Origin: a virus
DNA length: 42,560 nt
Direction: 5' to 3' (one strand)
IMG/VR virus record: IMGVR_UViG_3300042691_029354
Location: 1-42,560 of that record
Part shown: positions 4,508-40,041 of the stretch, in pieces
How positions within the stretch are numbered: the stretch's first letter is position 1
How the letters are laid out: every line of letters begins with the position of its first letter
Position numbers and translations under genes: made by a program
The notes under the pieces: model-generated
The model's database searches: none
What the model was told of the DNA's origin: nothing
Seen by the model: the letters and a program-made list of their open reading frames with translations, nothing else

Positions 4508-6661
4508 TTAGGTAGAGGCAGAATTATTCATCTGCATGTATTGTGGCTCAGTTGCCACACTAGGGACATTCATCCCTAAATCATCATTAACAACACTTCC
4601 AGGCGTGGAAATAGGCTGCATACCGCCCATCGCCGCCTGATCTTGTGGATTAAGCTTATAAATATCAGCCATTCCAACACCCTGTTCCTCAATGCGCTTG
4701 ATAAGCCAAGCCATAGAGTCAGAAGGCACTCGCAAACGACGAGATTTTGCTGGATCTTTAGGGTCAGTCACATACATATCAACACCGATCATGGCACCAG
4801 TAGTAGGGATAAGACCCTTATTTTGAGCCGCAAGCTGCTCTTTTTGCTGATTTAATACTTCAGATCGCACTTGACGCTGTTTAGCGTATAAACCCTGAAT
4901 AAATGGATTCATAAGCCTAAAATCAGGCTGTCTCATGCGATCAGAAAGCCTTCCTAAGATATAAGCATTGTCATCTTCTGGGAAAACTTGTACTTCCTCA
5001 CCACGATCAAGCGCTAAAATAATGTTATCCGCAACACGACTATTTAAAGTCATGTCGTTAAACACCTCGCTCACCTGAGCAAACGGCATTTCCTTGATAA
5101 TTTTACCAATATCTTCCTTGCTCATTCCATTGGCAGCGTACTGAATGACAGAGTTAAGCACCATCTGCTTACCCATCTGCGAAGTGATATCATCAGAACG
5201 AGGCTTAACCTTAATCTGAAGCGATAAATCGCTTGCTGACTTGAACTCTTCAATGTTCACTCTCTCAGAGCGACCAATGTATGAAACGATGGTGTCATCG
5301 TTGAAATAGGTCTTCGCCATTCTGAAATAAAGCTTTGCAATCTTGATAATCATGTTTTCCAAACGACGAATATATCTAGAGAATGCCTTTTTCTGTCTTG
5401 CACTCATAAACAACATCGTGAATGGATCCTGACCTTGCTTAAACTCTTGATCCTCTTGAACCATAGCAACTTTATACATCTCCGCAATCTGTGAGAGCAT
5501 GTAATCCAAATACTGTGAACCATTGCGGCCAGGGATAACCGTAACTCCACCGCCATTAACAGAAAGATGGCGCACACCATTGGTCATACCAGCAGTGCTC
5601 ATCTTGTTCCCGTTGGTTGTGACAACCTTATCATCACCCAAAGTCATCTGGTGCTCGGCAATCTTGCTAGCACATCGGTTGATTTCAACCTGATAAGGAC
5701 GAAGCTGTTTAATTAGCGAACGACCACGAGGAGTCGTAGGAATCTTGTCCATATGCTGAACAATGATTGGAAAGATGTGCTTGCCGTCAAAGTCTTTTGG
5801 TAACTCCCCCTCGGCAAGCACAACGTCCTCAGTAAAGAGCGCAAAATATCCGTTGGGATAATCCGCACATGGCTTCTGATAATACTCAATGAGCATTGTC
5901 TCGTTCTTATCTGCCTTCCGATACCCGCCATCGGCGCCAAAATCGAACACCATGAACGTGCGATCTTCACTCTCCTTGATCTTATCTGCAGTGTCTGGAA
6001 AGGTTTTCTTCAAATCCTTTACCGACACCATTTTTTGGTAAAACAAATACGGACTCTCATCCATACTCTTCGCTTCTGGAGCACGTTTTAAATCGGCGCA
6101 GAAAATCTTCTCCACCATAATATCTCCAGAAAACTTAGGACTGCTATCATCAGGAATAGGCTGGCCCATTTCATCAAATGCTGGCTGACCCATGTCATCC
6201 ACGGCTTGGTTAAATCCAACCAAGTGTCCAGCGTTGGGATCAAAATACATTTTAATCGCCGTCTCACCTAAAAAGAAATCATCAGCAAGCTCTGAGAACA
6301 TCTCATCGAAATTGTGACGCTCTTTTGCGTCTTCCCAAATCGCCGAGTACATCTCAGCGGCTTTTCTATCCTGCATTTCTCCTGGGTTTTTGGCCTCGAC
6401 CACAATTCCAGGTGCTGCCGAAAGAAGATTGTTAGAATAGATCTTAGAAATAACCCCAATATGGTTTTTTGTAAGACGTACTTTCTGGTCCTTTGATAGA
6501 TCCTTGGTTTCTCTAATCCTCTCAAAACTTTTTTGATTAGTTTTTAAGTAGTGATCACCAGAAACAAGCAATACGTTTGATCTAATCTCGGCTGTCCAAG
6601 ACTTATCAGCCTCAGTCGCCTCACGGTGCATTGACACCAGTTCAGAAAGCTTAATACCCAT
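4508..6661 (-). CDS. Portal protein
   Basis: The 717-residue product matches the length of P22-like podovirus portals. It starts MGIKLSELVSMHREATEADK, has an early aromatic-charged region (RSNVLLVSGDHYLKTN), and a central helical region around residues 400-450 (DPFTMLFMSARQKKAF). The C-terminal 100 residues are Gln/Asn/Met-rich and probably flexible. Twelve copies form the vertex channel through which DNA enters and leaves, and the terminase docks on it. It is located between terminase and scaffold/capsid genes, as in related phages. Assignment rests on size, composition and gene order plus overall resemblance, not on a catalytic motif. Confidence 0.85.
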   Translation of the reverse strand: MGIKLSELVSMHREATEADKSWTAEIRSNVLLVSGDHYLKTNQKSFERIRETKDLSKDQKVRLTKNHIGVISKIYSNNLLSAAPGIVVEAKNPGEMQDRKAAEMYSAIWEDAKERHNFDEMFSELADDFFLGETAIKMYFDPNAGHLVGFNQAVDDMGQPAFDEMGQPIPDDSSPKFSGDIMVEKIFCADLKRAPEAKSMDESPYLFYQKMVSVKDLKKTFPDTADKIKESEDRTFMVFDFGADGGYRKADKNETMLIEYYQKPCADYPNGYFALFTEDVVLAEGELPKDFDGKHIFPIIVQHMDKIPTTPRGRSLIKQLRPYQVEINRCASKIAEHQMTLGDDKVVTTNGNKMSTAGMTNGVRHLSVNGGGVTVIPGRNGSQYLDYMLSQIAEMYKVAMVQEDQEFKQGQDPFTMLFMSARQKKAFSRYIRRLENMIIKIAKLYFRMAKTYFNDDTIVSYIGRSERVNIEEFKSASDLSLQIKVKPRSDDITSQMGKQMVLNSVIQYAANGMSKEDIGKIIKEMPFAQVSEVFNDMTLNSRVADNIILALDRGEEVQVFPEDDNAYILGRLSDRMRQPDFRLMNPFIQGLYAKQRQVRSEVLNQQKEQLAAQNKGLIPTTGAMIGVDMYVTDPKDPAKSRRLRVPSDSMAWLIKRIEEQGVGMADIYKLNPQDQAAMGGMQPISTPGSVVNDDLGMNVPSVATEPQYMQMNNSAST

Positions 6662-6667
6662 GGAGTG

Positions 6668-7045
6668 TTACCCGTTTTTCTTTCGATAAAACTCTTTTCG
6701 AGCCGCTGCATTCTCGTCAACATATCCAGCTTTTGAAAGCTCAGACTCATCTGTAAGTTGTTTAACGCGATTTTCAGCAGCAGGATTAAATACGCCAACA
6801 TCATCGCCAGTTTGAAACGTGTTACGAGCCTCTAATGACTCAACAGAACCATCAGCCTTAAGCTCTTGCTTCATCATCTTTGCCATAGAAGGACCAGATT
6901 CAGAAGATAGCGCCTCCGAAATTGCTTCTTTTACAAATCTCTTAATTGAAGGCCCAAGCTCTCCAACCATTTTCCCAGCATATTGCGATAAAGCCTTATT
7001 TAAAGACTCACTGTTTTCAGTAACAATAGATTTTTTAGCCTTCAC
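6668..7045 (-). CDS. Conserved-context small protein upstream of portal (125 aa)
   Basis: The gene uses a GTG start (reads MKAKKSIVTENSESLNK) that overlaps the 3' end of the preceding gene by 11 bases, and it ends 6 bases before the portal ATG. The protein is charged and mostly helical, with a possible amphipathic segment at about residues 25-50 and an acidic-basic C-terminus ending in EFYRKKNG. Position between terminase and portal suggests a packaging or portal-assembly accessory, but no family was recognised. Confidence 0.7.
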   Translation of the reverse strand: MKAKKSIVTENSESLNKALSQYAGKMVGELGPSIKRFVKEAISEALSSESGPSMAKMMKQELKADGSVESLEARNTFQTGDDVGVFNPAAENRVKQLTDESELSKAGYVDENAAARKEFYRKKNG

Positions 7046-7280
7046 GATGGTTCAATGCCTCCTCATAGGCGACAGGATCCGTTAAAATTAAATCCTGAAG
7101 CGCGTCTTCCATATTATCATCTTTTTCTTCCTTTGAAAGACTCACCTCAATATGCTTTTGAGGCAAATCGCCAAAACGAATCTCAAAATCGTCAAACTTC
7201 AAGAACTCAACACCCTGTTCCCTACAAATACCAATGATAGATTTGATTTCTGACACCGTTCTTTTACTTTTAGCTGCCAT
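7035..7280 (-). CDS. Small acidic protein (81 aa), unknown
   Basis: I place the start at the ATG at 7280 (MAAKSKRTVSEIKSIIGIC) because codons further upstream read as non-coding sequence with odd composition. The protein combines a helix (SEIKSIIGICREQGVEFLKF) with short strands and an acidic C-terminus (SKEEKDDNMEDALQDL). It overlaps the next gene by 11 bases, so the two are probably co-translated. The function is unknown; context suggests a virion-assembly accessory. Confidence 0.65.
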   Translation of the reverse strand: MAAKSKRTVSEIKSIIGICREQGVEFLKFDDFEIRFGDLPQKHIEVSLSKEEKDDNMEDALQDLILTDPVAYEEALNHREG

Positions 7281-7296
7281 GGTGTAAACATACCAC

Positions 7297-7599
7297 ATGC
7301 AATCTTGGAAAAACAATCTAACAACTAAACTTTCAAACGACGGTATATTTGTGGGCAAAGGCAAAGATCGGTTCACCAATATCAAAACTCAAACAATCGA
7401 AAAGAACGGTAAAAAGGTCGAAGTTACTCTTGGCCGAAATGCTCGCACCCAAAAGGTCGAAATCATCGACCACCGATGGACAGATGGTGAGCCGGAAGAT
7501 CTTATAAAGTTTATGATGACACCTATGCCATCAAATCATCCCAATACTCCATCTCCCGATCAATTGGGTCAGGAGAGGTTAGCGGATCCACACGAGTAG
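7297..7599 (+). CDS. Possible antisense-strand small protein (100 aa)
   Basis: An open frame on the plus strand fills the only gap in the minus-strand head cluster (7281-7522) and then overlaps the 3' end of the terminase gene by 77 bases. The product (MQSWKNNLTTKLSNDGIFVG) has ordinary protein-like composition for its first 75 residues: a beta-rich core with NIKTQTIEKNGKKVEVTL and an IIDHRWTDGEPEDL stretch. The tail over the terminase gene is Pro/Asn-rich and less convincing. No ribosome site is obvious (TAAACATACCAC before the ATG). It could be a real gene with its own promoter or a chance frame. Confidence 0.45.
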   Translation: MQSWKNNLTTKLSNDGIFVGKGKDRFTNIKTQTIEKNGKKVEVTLGRNARTQKVEIIDHRWTDGEPEDLIKFMMTPMPSNHPNTPSPDQLGQERLADPHE

Positions 7600-24518: not shown

Positions 24519-24862
24519 TTAAAACAACAACTGAAAGAACTATTACTGAAACACGTTGGGTTTTGAGACGCGAAGACTTTGGTGAAATTTTAAAAGATCT
24601 TGGCGATGATTACCAGATTGAAGATATGTCAAAGTTTTACGCAAAAAGACTTGAAGACAATGAAGTAGAAAAGAAGCTATGGGAAAGTGGGAACAAGTTT
24701 AGAGCTATGATGTTTATGTCTCCATTCCATCATGTTCGTGCAAACTATACACTACTCTGCGGTTTAATTGGAAGACTCTGGTTTAATGAAGGCGATAGCC
24801 TACTTAAAAAAGAAGGAGTTTATACAATTGAATCTGCTACTCTTGGTCCCGAAGAACAGTAA
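24515..24862 (+). CDS. Last gene of early chain (115 aa), unknown
   Basis: The product MIKTTTERTITETRWVLRRE is soluble, with SKFYAKRLEDNEVEKKLW as a charged helix and a His/Phe-rich part (MMFMSPFHHVRANYTLLCGL). It ends 26 bases inside the 3' end of the convergent glycosyltransferase gene. No terminator hairpin is evident at this junction, so the two opposing transcripts probably overlap. Function unknown. Confidence 0.7.
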   Translation: MIKTTTERTITETRWVLRREDFGEILKDLGDDYQIEDMSKFYAKRLEDNEVEKKLWESGNKFRAMMFMSPFHHVRANYTLLCGLIGRLWFNEGDSLLKKEGVYTIESATLGPEEQ

Positions 24863-26324
24863 ACGACACCCAATAATTGTAGGATGCAAAGAACACCGCT
24901 GGCAGGAAGTTATACCAAGGATAGGTGTTTGAGTGATAGATTGCAGCTCCAATAACCACGGCAGTTGATAAGCTTACCCAATAAAACATAAGAGTACGAA
25001 ACGCGTAGAACCTACCCACAGGCTTAGACTTGTTGCCAGTTGGAGACCACGGCATAAGGTCTCCTCTAAGCTTATCCACCAAAGCAAACAAGTGCGCGTA
25101 GTAGGTTATCATCCTTGCCCTCGGTGCATACCAGCCAAAGGGAGCCGTTGTCCAAATAGCCATGAATATAAGCCCAAATACGAACGATGGAATTGAGAAG
25201 AAAGCATTGTACCAAAGCACATACTCTGGAGCAAACAGCATCAAAACAAGTGATGGTACTATAGTTAAGAAAAGCCCTAGAGCCGTTGCTATGTAGTAGA
25301 GCATTCCAGAGAGGAAGCAAATCTTTTGCATGAAAGTAAGCTTGGATAGCCAAAACTCTTTGTTTAAAAACAGTGTAATTGAACCCATAGCCCAGCGGTA
25401 TTGTTGCGTGAAAAACTGTGGCATGGCATCTGGGCACACACCTTTAGCAAGATTTATGGGGAGATACCTAACCTTCCACCCACCTAGCATGACGTTAAAG
25501 CCAGTGTGAACATCTTCTGAGTAACCAATTTCAGCAGTTCCACCAAACGGAGCAAGAGCCTCTCGTCTATAGACAGCACAAGTTCCGACACAAATAGCAC
25601 CATCAAAGCGGTCACGGTTTACTTGGATTAAGCGATAGAAAAGTTCTTGAATATAGCCAGCACCTTGCTCAACCCATGTTTGCTCTTTTGCGACAGTAAA
25701 GTATTGAGGCGTTTGAACAATGGCAATGCTTTTGTCTTGGTGAAAGTATGGAATAGTTTCCTCGATAAAATCAGGACGTGGGCAAAAGTCAGCGTCGAAT
25801 ATTATAATAAACTCACCGCGAGTTAGATTAAAAGCATATCGAAGGTTTCCTGCCTTTTTAAGAACTCCTCTGTTAGGTCTTAAAATATACTTGAACCCAA
25901 ACTCATAAGCTGCTTGCTCAACCTCTGTGCGTCCAGAATCATCGAGAACATAAACCGACACAGGTCCATACCATTTTAATTTTGAAACATACTTGTAAGT
26001 ATTCCTGAGTAGTTCAATTGGCTCACCAGCGCATGGCAGAAAAATGTCTATCGAGCAACTTCTATCGAAGTCTTTGATAAGCTTTTGGTGTTTGTCGAAA
26101 TCAAAGTCACGACCAAGGAATCCTATGAAGTAGGATATTCCAAGATAGACTGTCATAAGAAGTGCGAAGAACCCAAACCACCAGAATGATGGATGGGCTG
26201 ATACGAACAACCACATGCCAGCGCACAACGAGAAGTATCCGATCAGTCCTATAGAGTACAAAAAGTACCTATTGGTTTTAAGATACGAATACTTCTCAGC
26301 ATCCGTTGGTGGCGCTGGCAGCAT
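24837..26324 (-). CDS. Cellulose-synthase-like processive glycosyltransferase (GT2)
   Basis: Inner-membrane polysaccharide synthase. From the ATG at 26324 (495 residues) there are two N-terminal transmembrane helices (about 20-70), then a GT2 domain with VLDDSGR (127-133), KAGNL (157-161), FDADFCP (176-182), the acceptor motif QTP (204-206), GTCAV (247-251), catalytic SED (269-271) and QQYRW (307-311), the Q-x-x-R-W signature of cellulose, chitin and hyaluronan synthases. Four further membrane helices follow. There is no PilZ domain as in BcsA, so c-di-GMP control is not expected. It overlaps no coding partner except 26 bases of the convergent gene and lies 2 bases after its upstream partner. 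Substrate unknown. Confidence 0.92.
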   Translation of the reverse strand: MLPAPPTDAEKYSYLKTNRYFLYSIGLIGYFSLCAGMWLFVSAHPSFWWFGFFALLMTVYLGISYFIGFLGRDFDFDKHQKLIKDFDRSCSIDIFLPCAGEPIELLRNTYKYVSKLKWYGPVSVYVLDDSGRTEVEQAAYEFGFKYILRPNRGVLKKAGNLRYAFNLTRGEFIIIFDADFCPRPDFIEETIPYFHQDKSIAIVQTPQYFTVAKEQTWVEQGAGYIQELFYRLIQVNRDRFDGAICVGTCAVYRREALAPFGGTAEIGYSEDVHTGFNVMLGGWKVRYLPINLAKGVCPDAMPQFFTQQYRWAMGSITLFLNKEFWLSKLTFMQKICFLSGMLYYIATALGLFLTIVPSLVLMLFAPEYVLWYNAFFSIPSFVFGLIFMAIWTTAPFGWYAPRARMITYYAHLFALVDKLRGDLMPWSPTGNKSKPVGRFYAFRTLMFYWVSLSTAVVIGAAIYHSNTYPWYNFLPAVFFASYNYWVSFTVLRDQE

Positions 26325-26326
26325 GA

Positions 26327-26671
26327 CTACCAAATCTTGTAGGTAAATTTAACGTGTACGTTGTGTTGGAACTTCTGATAAGGAAGAACCAAGAGAGCTG
26401 TGTATCCAGGAGAAATGGTTAGTTTGTCCCAGTACAAATCAAGATCGTGTTTGCTGGTGAGCCAGTGAACGCCGCCTTTTAAAACAGGCTGCTCTCCGTA
26501 TCCAGTCCAACCGTTGTAGGCAATGTGTCCTTGAATAAGTGGCTCATAGATTCCAAGTCCAATCATAGGAGTAACTTTATCTTCACCAAGCCAAAAGTTG
26601 GGTTGCAAAGTAAGTTTTCCTGAGGCCATTGCAGTTGTTGAGAGTGTTAAAAATAAAAATAGATTTCTCAT
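26327..26671 (-). CDS. Small exported, outer-membrane-like protein (114 aa)
   Basis: The N-terminus MRNLFLFLTLSTTAMASGKL is a signal peptide with probable cleavage after AMA or ASG. The remaining roughly 95 residues alternate polar and aromatic residues in short strands (KLTLQPNFWLGEDKV, HIAYNGWTGYGEQP, SPGYTALLVLPYQKF) and end with an aromatic residue (YKIW), as outer-membrane barrels do. It is too short for a standard 8-strand barrel unless it oligomerises. GGAGG lies 5 bases before the ATG. Its place just upstream of the synthase suggests it exports or holds the polymer, or modifies the envelope. Confidence 0.65.
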   Translation of the reverse strand: MRNLFLFLTLSTTAMASGKLTLQPNFWLGEDKVTPMIGLGIYEPLIQGHIAYNGWTGYGEQPVLKGGVHWLTSKHDLDLYWDKLTISPGYTALLVLPYQKFQHNVHVKFTYKIW

Positions 26672-26750
26672 GTTTCCTCCAAGCCAGCCATTTTATCTCA
26701 CATTGATATTTATTTGCGTTTATAGTATTCAATAAATTGACAGATATGAT

Positions 26751-27014
26751 ATGTTGTACCTTATGGATGTAATAGAAGTTCCTAGAGAAGATCCAAATAT
26801 ATTGGTCATAAAGATTGACCTTAGAACACCTTGGTATGCTCTTTTTGAGCAAATTGAGCGCAAGATTATCACCGACACACTAAAAGCCAATGGGAACAAA
26901 ATCGGTGTCGCTGCGGATACTCTTAAGATAAATCGCACCACGCTACATGAGAAAGTAAAAAAGCTAGGAATACCTAGACGTAAGCGTTTTAAAAACACAC
27001 TTAGGAAGGAGTAA
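26751..27014 (+). CDS. Fis/NtrC-C-terminal type HTH protein (87 aa)
   Basis: Residues about 27-77 contain LFEQIERKIITDTLKANGN, then KIGVAADTLKINRTTLHEKV, the Fis-type helix-turn-helix found at the C-terminus of NtrC-like activators; the 'L-x-x-NRTTL-x-x-K-x-x-x-L-G-I' ending is characteristic. There is no sigma54-interaction ATPase, so it is a stand-alone DNA-binding domain. Starts at 26751 or 26763 lack a ribosome site. It is divergent from the glycosyltransferase cassette (80-base gap), so it may regulate that cassette. Confidence 0.8.
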   Translation: MLYLMDVIEVPREDPNILVIKIDLRTPWYALFEQIERKIITDTLKANGNKIGVAADTLKINRTTLHEKVKKLGIPRRKRFKNTLRKE

Positions 27015-37865: not shown

Positions 37866-38612
37866 TTAGTATTTTATAATCCAGTTCACAGCAACGTTCA
37901 CAGGTCGTGACTCATTGCTATTGGCTGATCCTTCCTTATAAGTTCCTGCTGTCATTCCAGTAACAGCATTTGAGCTAGCAGATAAAACACCGCTATCGCC
38001 ATGTTGACTAGCGCTAAATCCTACAGATCCAGAGTTGTCATAACCACGAGTCGAGCTAGTAAGAGCACCAGTGTGTGTGTGTTGTTTTACTTCATCTGCT
38101 TGATAAGATCCTACGTTGTCTCCAGTTGCCCCACCAGTTGCTATCGCAGTTCTAGTGGCCGCATTAGGATCGTTTCCAGCTCCGCGATCTCTTCCTCGTA
38201 AAAATAAGCCGCGCATGTCTGGAAGATTAAAAGTTGTCGAGCCATCGCCCTCACCCCAAGAAGTAGATATAATGGCAAACAAACCAGCGTAAGTAGTTCT
38301 ATTGACAGCAGCTCCATGACACAAAAGCCATCCAGATGGTGCTGACGTTCCAACATAAGAAACAACAGTCCCTACGGGAGCAATACCACCAGAAAACTTA
38401 GCTGCGCCAAGTCCAGCAAGCTTTAGTCTCAACTTGTTGCTGCCATCAACTTCAACAGTAGAGTTGTCAACGGCAGCAGAGGCTATCTTTTTTACTGGTT
38501 CACCCTTGTTGTTTGAGTGATCGTGAGCATCAATAGCATTAAGAGAACTCTCAAGTTTTGCCTGATAGTTTGTGTCTCCAACTTGAGGAATTTGTATATT
38601 TTCAATTGTCAT
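37866..38612 (-). CDS. Tail collar-domain fibre protein 1 (248 aa)
   Basis: One of three tandem paralogues. N-terminus: IENIQIPQVGDTNYQAKL, then a SLNAIDAHDHSNNKGEPV docking-like block. The collar domain follows: PSGWLLCHGAAVNRTTYAGL and FNLPDMRGLFLRGRDRGAG. A C-terminal part has VKQHTHTGAL, an HxH metal-site motif seen in T4 and lambda fibres, and ends ESRPVNVAVNWIIKY. Likely a receptor-binding tip. The ATG overlaps the preceding stop by 4 bases. Confidence 0.88.
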   Translation of the reverse strand: MTIENIQIPQVGDTNYQAKLESSLNAIDAHDHSNNKGEPVKKIASAAVDNSTVEVDGSNKLRLKLAGLGAAKFSGGIAPVGTVVSYVGTSAPSGWLLCHGAAVNRTTYAGLFAIISTSWGEGDGSTTFNLPDMRGLFLRGRDRGAGNDPNAATRTAIATGGATGDNVGSYQADEVKQHTHTGALTSSTRGYDNSGSVGFSASQHGDSGVLSASSNAVTGMTAGTYKEGSANSNESRPVNVAVNWIIKY

Positions 38613-39337
38613 ATTCTAATCCACCATGCGACAGCCATGTTTTTAGGACGAAATTCATTTCCACCGCTATTGTTTACTGTGTACGTAGGCGTTTGATTTC
38701 CCCAGTTTTGAGCACCACCAAAAGTAGCACCAGGGGTTGGACCACCTATACGCCAAGTTCTTGAAGAAGAAACTGTGTGCGTGTGAGTTTTCATAGCTCC
38801 CTTTTGCACACTACCAATATTGTCCCCACTGTTTCCACCAGATGCCGCTGCAGCACGAGAAGATGCGTCCGGATCTCGTCCAGCCGTAAGGTCAGCACCA
38901 CGAACAAACATACCAGTAAGATTTGGTAGATGAAATGTGGTTGTTCCATTTCCATTTCCAAACTTATCACCAATAACAGCATAAAGAGTTGCATAAGTAG
39001 TTCTACTTATCTGAGAGCCATCGCATCTTAAATATTCAGAGCCAGGAGATGCGTCGTTTAAATCAAAGTGGCTAATAATTGCACCAGTAGGAAGAGAAAG
39101 TCCAGTTGTGGCATAATCATTGGTGACGCTGCCATCCTTCACAGAAGCTACACCTGCCGCTGCAGTAATAGTAGAGTCGTCAGTACTACCTAAGTCTATT
39201 CTTTTAACTGGCAAACCAGCACCAGCAGCATGAGTGTGATCATCAATTGCGTTCAAAGAATCCGACAACTTTGAGACGTAAGATAGATCTCGTCCGTCTC
39301 CATTTTGTGGTGGATCTATTCCTGTAATGTTACTCAT
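38609..39337 (-). CDS. Tail collar-domain fibre protein 2 (242 aa)
   Basis: Second tandem paralogue. It shares the N-terminal SLNAIDDHTHAAGAGLPVKR block, the collar (EYLRCDGSQISRTTYATL and FHLPNLTGMFVRGADLTAGR), the HxH element MKTHTHTVSS, and the end EFRPKNMAVAWWIRI. The part between HxH and the end differs from copies 1 and 3 (RTWRIGGPTPGATFGG), which is where receptor specificity would lie. Overlaps both neighbours by 4 bases. Confidence 0.88.
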   Translation of the reverse strand: MSNITGIDPPQNGDGRDLSYVSKLSDSLNAIDDHTHAAGAGLPVKRIDLGSTDDSTITAAAGVASVKDGSVTNDYATTGLSLPTGAIISHFDLNDASPGSEYLRCDGSQISRTTYATLYAVIGDKFGNGNGTTTFHLPNLTGMFVRGADLTAGRDPDASSRAAAASGGNSGDNIGSVQKGAMKTHTHTVSSSRTWRIGGPTPGATFGGAQNWGNQTPTYTVNNSGGNEFRPKNMAVAWWIRI

Positions 39338-40041
39338 GTTTTTATTAAATACTCCACATAAACACTTTTAGGACGAGACTCTGTTACAGAGTTTTGATTG
39401 AGCAACGTAAAGTCTGTGTTGTTTGGATTCTGGTTGTTTGGACCAGATCCCGCAGTGTCTGAAGTGCTACCACCGTTACGAATAGCAGGAAATGAGACAG
39501 TGTGGTTGTGGGATTGAAGCTGATCAGTCTGATACGAACCAATCAAGTTTCCTGATCCACCATTATAAGTACGGCTAGCACTATCAGGATCAACAGTAGC
39601 AGACGTGTCGCGACCGCGAAGAAAATAACCACGAAGATCGGGTACTTTAAACGTCCCACCAGGCCCACCAGTTCCGCCTATTCGCGTCCCCATAAGAGCG
39701 CCAAGCGTTGGATAATCGTTATAGTTGTAAGTTGTTCCATCGCACAATAAAAAGCCCGATGGAACAGAAGCAGCGTTGGCAGCATAGGCAATAATAGTCC
39801 CAGGCGGTACAAAACCACCAAACGATGGGTGGAGCTTTGAGGCTCCAATCCCACCGTCTTTGACTCTTATTTGATTAGAAACCACTTCAAGAGAAGTTCC
39901 ATCAACAGCGTCAGAATGTATTCTTTCAACTGGATCATTTGAATGATCGTGATCATCAATCAAGTTTAAAGAACTAGTAACCTTCTGAACGTAAGTTTGT
40001 GGAGTATCTTCATTAAGCGGAATCTGAACTCCAATAGCCAC
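39334..40041 (-). CDS. Tail collar-domain fibre protein 3 (235 aa)
   Basis: First of the three in transcription order. It has SSLNLIDDHDHSNDPVERI, the collar (PSGFLLCDGTTYNYNDYPTL and FKVPDLRGYFLRGRDTSA), the HxH element LQSHNHTVSF, and the end ESRPKSVYVEYLIKT. Its tip region (SGPNNQNPNNTDFTLLNQNS) is distinct. Likely receptor-binding with its paralogues, or an older copy that specialises in collar attachment. Confidence 0.88.
   Translation of the reverse strand: MAIGVQIPLNEDTPQTYVQKVTSSLNLIDDHDHSNDPVERIHSDAVDGTSLEVVSNQIRVKDGGIGASKLHPSFGGFVPPGTIIAYAANAASVPSGFLLCDGTTYNYNDYPTLGALMGTRIGGTGGPGGTFKVPDLRGYFLRGRDTSATVDPDSASRTYNGGSGNLIGSYQTDQLQSHNHTVSFPAIRNGGSTSDTAGSGPNNQNPNNTDFTLLNQNSVTESRPKSVYVEYLIKT

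Follow-up and report, generated by a model that had tools for sequence, protein, structure and literature searches.

Why should a tailed phage carry a gene for a cellulose-synthase-like enzyme, and what might that enzyme do in an infected cell? We study this question on an IMG/VR virus contig of 42,560 bases, the whole of which was analysed and is here called the window. A first-pass annotation had placed a GT2 glycosyltransferase (below, the GT) at 24837-26324; the coordinates are right, and the strand, which was not given, is minus. We find that the GT is the second gene of a pair, preceded by a gene for a small secreted protein (below, the partner). It is fairly probable, in our judgement, that the two form a phage cassette in which an inner-membrane polysaccharide synthase is combined with a small outer-membrane partner for export or anchoring. 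The features of the window that this reading draws on are listed here.

24837 to 26324, minus strand: GT2 of BcsA/cellulose-synthase fold, 495 aa (Pfam, NCBIfam, AlphaFold2 model)
25938 to 25943, minus strand: DD, residues 128-129 (D128-D129; motif read and 18-member alignment)
25845 to 25856, minus strand: KAGN, residues 157-160 (motif read and 18-member alignment)
25788 to 25796, minus strand: DAD (DxD), residues 177-179 (motif read and 18-member alignment)
25512 to 25517, minus strand: ED (residues 270-271) of SED (residues 269-271; motif read and alignment)
25392 to 25406, minus strand: QQYRW (QxxRW), residues 307-311 (motif read and 18-member alignment)
25032 to 25049, minus strand: WSPTGN segment, residues 426-431, low pLDDT (model and alignment)
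26327 to 26671, minus strand: partner gene, 114 aa, signal peptide, six beta strands, C-terminal aromatic (sequence, AlphaFold2)
26676 to 26680, minus strand: GGAGG ribosome-binding site of the partner gene (read from sequence)
26751 to 27014, plus strand: Fis-type HTH_8 protein, divergent from the cassette across a 79-bp intergenic region

Starting from the motifs, the predicted fold, the pairing, the co-divergence and the phage location, we infer polymerisation, sugar, export, role and benefit in the following way. The first gene would yield a secreted six-stranded protein of outer-membrane type and the second an inner-membrane GT2 of cellulose-synthase fold. During infection the GT would polymerise a host UDP-sugar (partly phage-supplied in some phages) into a linear glycan, extruded through the GT's own membrane channel and free of c-di-GMP control. 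The small partner, in the outer membrane, would help this glycan to get through, to dock or to remain at the surface; that it exports or anchors the glycan is a claim we place slightly below an even chance. With this glycan the infected cell would acquire an altered surface, most plausibly one that hides receptors from rival phages. In its most general form, our proposal is that a minimal trans-envelope system for glycan secretion is common to many phages that are unrelated and for the most part virulent: a PilZ-free inner-membrane polymerase would act together with an outer-membrane protein from a new family, six-stranded and probably oligomeric, and the two would coat infected diderm bacteria with a phage-specified polysaccharide; taken as a whole, this is a tentative proposal.

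What would the phage gain? Exclusion of competing phages is, as the benefit taken singly, rather unlikely, and predator protection, cell clumping and progeny retention are alternatives to it. A reading in which the cassette alters or decorates virion or infected cell to one of these other ends (clumping, grazing protection or progeny retention, as proposed for chloroviruses) is possible, if somewhat doubtful. No benefit from exclusion has been demonstrated for the hyaluronan and chitin of chloroviruses, for which a number of these roles are proposed (PMC5408694). Most cassette phages also show no integrase (one is found in 2 of the 17 records searched), so that a role in prophage-type immunity is less expected.

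We now consider the GT itself. Its reading frame runs from an ATG at 26324 to 24837 and encodes 495 aa; an alternative TTG start at 26333 would add three residues and overlap the upstream gene. The GT2 motifs that the annotation had reported (KAGN, DAD, SED and QQYRW) are indeed present, and DD completes the set; because these catalytic residues are invariant or nearly so across 18 homologues, the motifs are not a matter of chance. Pfam finds only GT2-type domains and Cellulose_synt in the protein, and NCBIfam assigns it to CelA (E 2.9e-55); the equivalog cut-off of TIGR03030 is not reached (187.6 versus 699.1 bits). An AlphaFold2 model built from 14 phage and bacterial relatives (mean pLDDT 89.6, pTM 0.88) contains six long hydrophobic helices, at residues 19-43, 50-70, 331-353, 371-390, 437-464 and 470-492, in agreement with the six or so membrane helices expected earlier; a further helix, 399-420, we take as an amphipathic interface helix in this model.

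The first-pass annotation had suggested a comparison of the predicted structure with BcsA and hyaluronan synthase. In VIA-align the top match of the model is E. coli BcsA (9fnn), with Z 29.6, rmsd 3.3 and 451 aligned residues at 23% identity, model residues 18-495 corresponding to BcsA 195-690. Rhodobacter BcsA, plant CesA8 (Z 23.9) and Chlorella virus hyaluronan synthase (Z 23.8) come next among these synthases. As in the processive CesA/HAS/Chs class, the transmembrane core adjoins the catalytic domain, with QxxRW. The WSPTGN segment (WxPTG) is flexible and is placed as the gating loop of BcsA is, and we interpret it as gating-loop-like from the model. The QxxRW motif, the six membrane helices and the WxPTG segment in its flexible loop are the grounds on which we consider the GT quite probably processive, and the description of the gene as a BcsA-like, probably processive GT2 is upheld.

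This fold alone, however, is no proof of processivity. The archaeal PcManGT (6yv7) shows a cellulose-synthase-like fold in minimal form but is not known to polymerise, and it matches the GT model well (Z 25.7, 333 aligned residues). Like PcManGT or GtrB, the GT might therefore transfer one or a few sugars onto an inner-membrane lipid, LPS or a protein, with the partner acting as a receptor-masking outer-membrane protein, and modification of surface glycans by Gtr enzymes is common among phages (PMC11436027). We regard such a non-polymerase as unlikely: QxxRW is present in 18 of 18 cassette GTs, the C-terminal helices and loop match the whole BcsA core over those 451 residues, and no GtrA-like or flippase gene lies beside the cassette in the window, where the neighbour of the GT is a secreted beta protein. 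DPM-type structures, the non-processive class named in the annotation as the competing assignment, do not appear among the best 50 matches, which BcsA heads, an absence that does not by itself decide against that class.

A different point concerns regulation. The annotation had spoken of a loss of the PilZ domain, of which the absence stands and the loss does not. Pfam finds no PilZ domain in the GT, and the BcsA alignment stops before PilZ (model residue 495 equals BcsA 690). The nearest relatives of the GT, in other phages, actinobacterial-type loci and a Leptolyngbya plasmid, are also without PilZ, and in the tree the PilZ-bearing BcsA and gp158 of Synechococcus phage S-CBWM1 lie on a separate long branch. 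Since PilZ is missing from all sampled members of the branch, its absence is, as far as sampled, a trait of the branch and not a loss in the window phage. The cassette GTs do not form one clade in this tree (three changes; several deep nodes are weak).

Turning to the partner, we find that its stop lies 2 nt from the GT start. The partner has its own GGAGG site and no GGAGG-type site is found directly upstream of the GT, an arrangement that suggests coupled translation; the two genes are thus apparently translationally coupled. The divergent HTH_8 protein is a possible regulator, and promoter and terminator scans gave nothing better than shuffles. On the other side of the GT lies a 115-aa ORF on the opposite strand; neither flanking gene has a Pfam match, and no BcsB was recognised beside the GT.

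The signal peptide of the partner was identified by inspection of 18 members, and the mature protein has about 95 residues. In the window it ends in ...FTYKIW, and the C-terminal residue is W or F in all 18 partners except one, which ends in W-D. An AlphaFold2 model from nine sequences (pLDDT 82.6) has six beta strands and no helix, and its best structure matches are outer-membrane barrels (designed TMB, Z 9.1; OpcA, 8.8; KdgM, 8.7; Ail, 8.5; OmpA, 8.4), which at Z 8-9 stand barely above the stated noise level of Z 7-8 for this comparison. Streptavidin-type folds follow at Z 7.1-7.8, about 1-2 below, and six is a low number of strands for an outer-membrane barrel, to our knowledge lower than in any known monomeric one; both observations speak for a soluble beta-barrel in the periplasm, similar to streptavidin or a lectin, which would bind or modify the glycan as it grows. 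We give this soluble barrel only a small chance, because a C-terminal aromatic closes almost every member, the top structure ranks are held by outer-membrane barrels, and the alternating hydrophobic pattern of the strands fits a membrane barrel: strands 1, 5 and 6 are strongly amphipathic, with moments of 1.5-1.7 versus 0.66-0.75 in shuffled sequences (18 members). The partner is likely an outer-membrane protein of a new family, and we think it probable that the outer membrane is where it sits. No match to it was found in Pfam, PHROGs (best E 0.019), the PDB by sequence, phages or plasmids, and a search with the partner alignment gave no loci beyond those already having the GT. It is the more novel part of the pair.

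Is this pair truly one of phages? The window has the terminase, portal, helicase and primase of a tailed phage (profile matches), along with tail-collar fibre, Sak4-like and RecE-like proteins, and G+C is flat across the GT gene with no shift relative to its surroundings. No host-identifying relatives of the window TerL or primase were found; the window contains no tRNA and no Rfam match, and PADLOC matched neither the GT nor the partner. At 37866-40041 stand three tandem tail-collar-type proteins of similar size, one identified with a profile and two by eye; they may serve as alternative adhesins.

To follow the pair beyond the window, viral relatives were gathered with the pattern FFxQQYRW and an alignment search (alignment A4); single-protein GT scans of viral and genome contigs found no relative, a DADF...VQTPQ pattern had no matches, and a two-sequence GT alignment gave poor search patterns. 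The viral contigs recovered carry full-length GTs of 39-58% identity. A partner profile matches immediately upstream of the GT in the window and in 17 other dereplicated records, 18 in total; a search for phage homologues had been proposed in the annotation. The gap between the two genes is mostly -10 to +12 nt; it is 187 nt in L060/L061, and a methyltransferase-like gene stands between them in L014/L027. The GT occurs without the partner in one phage pair (L022/L028) and in the Leptolyngbya plasmid copy. Outside the pair, non-duplicate contigs have only 0-7 ORFs in common, which indicates that one cassette is found repeatedly on a range of backbones. Of the 18 records, 14 have a recognisable terminase gene, and in L021 the pair lies between the terminase and the portal/connector gene with ends overlapping or abutting. 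Partner and GT co-diverge (Mantel r 0.81; 0 of 5000 permutations as high), and dN/dS is well below 1 in both genes, as estimates with dS often saturated. The families phrog_30838 and phrog_22641 match 14 of 14 family members tested. That this is a real gene pair of phages is, for us, close to certain.

Two side observations come from these contigs. In G310, G311, G315, G309/G316, G011 and G016, the matches to terminase profiles run across in-frame stop codons (TGA, TAG or TAA), for which gaps, inserts, frameshifts or recoding are candidate explanations. In L035:5357-7827 (G005), the cassette adjoins genes that by eye resemble those for NMN-adenylyltransferase and nicotinamide phosphoribosyltransferase, a possible phage NAD+ salvage set.

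The strict pattern FFxQQYRWAxG is present in 11 of the 25 viral contigs that the shorter pattern had retrieved, whereas 84,980 bacterial and archaeal species genomes yield 4 loci with it. Only one of these 4 is a close relative (63% identity), at a Verrucomicrobiota MAG contig end (L055:17244-18290), internally deleted and out of frame before the C-terminus. Verrucomicrobiota have this broken GT copy in 1 of 289 genomes and no partner gene (the latter from a search without a positive control), and were rejected as host or donor on these grounds. Actinobacterial-type and cyanobacterial-plasmid relatives are 38-41% identical and lack the partner; the high-GC loci L018/L074, L024/L070, L077, L079, L080 and L081 were left out of the cassette set, being of actinobacterial type and having no partner. 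In L081:4815-8669 the GT runs into an acyltransferase/SGNH-like part within a single ORF (by eye). The broken Verrucomicrobiota copy notwithstanding, that the GT is misassembled host DNA, a doubt raised in the annotation itself, or a fragment of a bacterial gene with no role in the phage is extremely improbable, misassembly being ruled out by recurrence of the pair on 18 dereplicated phage backbones and by its placement in L021, with purifying selection and flat G+C pointing the same way.

Which sugar might be used? No sugar-nucleotide gene was recognised within the 42,560-nt window. UDP-sugar epimerase or nucleotide-sugar dehydrogenase genes lie near the pair in three other phages: in L060 the start of a GalE/TviC-like epimerase gene (6500-7516) overlaps the GT 3' end, a hint at the sugar used; both genes lie directly downstream in L025; and both lie a few kb upstream of the pair in L010. 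We see a parallel in chloroviruses, which encode UDP-glucose dehydrogenase alongside hyaluronan synthase (PMC5408694). In L038:15955-17736 (G013), a nucleotide-sugar dehydrogenase beside the cassette has an intein-like insertion (GGKC...HNCFPKDL).

The recurrence of the pair in at least 18 mostly unrelated viruses suggests that many phages make infected bacteria display a sugar polymer. Should the cassette reading hold, phages would share with chloroviruses the ability to remodel infected cells through a new polysaccharide, using a synthase/outer-membrane pair of very small size. Surface exclusion by virulent phages and polymer passage through the outer membrane could then be approached with just two genes, and a glycan synthase free of c-di-GMP control would become available, amenable to expression tests in laboratory E. 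coli. The cassette also suggests a function for phrog_30838 and phrog_22641, phage protein families listed without one.

How does the cassette compare with known systems? The GT shares with BcsA (TIGR03030) the GT2 core, motifs and membrane fold; it differs in having no PilZ, none of the first BcsA membrane helices and no recognised BcsB-like neighbour, and its cassette partner is a small beta protein. In PgaC/PgaA and BcsA/BcsC, an inner-membrane synthase is likewise joined to an outer-membrane protein, but these partners are large porins with TPR domains, in contrast to the roughly 95 mature residues and six strands found here. Phage GtrABC serotype conversion also uses phage-encoded surface-glycan genes with a GT2; it modifies O-antigen, its GtrB is without QxxRW, and the partners differ. 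Among viruses, the best structure match to the GT is M1HTG7 (47% identity, TM 0.96), which may be of the type of PBCV-1 A473L, a CelA-like chlorovirus GT2 of 517 aa with six TM segments described without function (PMC5408694, PMC9614988). A473L resembles the GT in being virus-encoded and in length and helix number, whereas it belongs to a eukaryotic algal virus and no outer-membrane partner is reported for it. The chlorovirus hyaluronan and chitin synthases are virus-encoded processive GT2s that coat infected cells (PMC5408694), but they share about 12% identity with the GT, act in a eukaryotic host and belong to a different branch. The putative cellulose synthase gp158 of S-CBWM1 is likewise a cellulose-synthase-like GT2, encoded by an isolated tailed phage; it is 28% identical to the GT and differs in that it has PilZ, stands beside a gene of efflux-pump type (HlyD-like) and falls with BcsA in the tree. 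Sponge viromes are a further reported source of CesA genes (PMC7532657), and the limited selection of literature searched held no description of the gene pair or the small-protein family. Virus-encoded polymerases are thus already known, from chloroviruses and S-CBWM1, and the pair of GT and partner appears to be a new variant.
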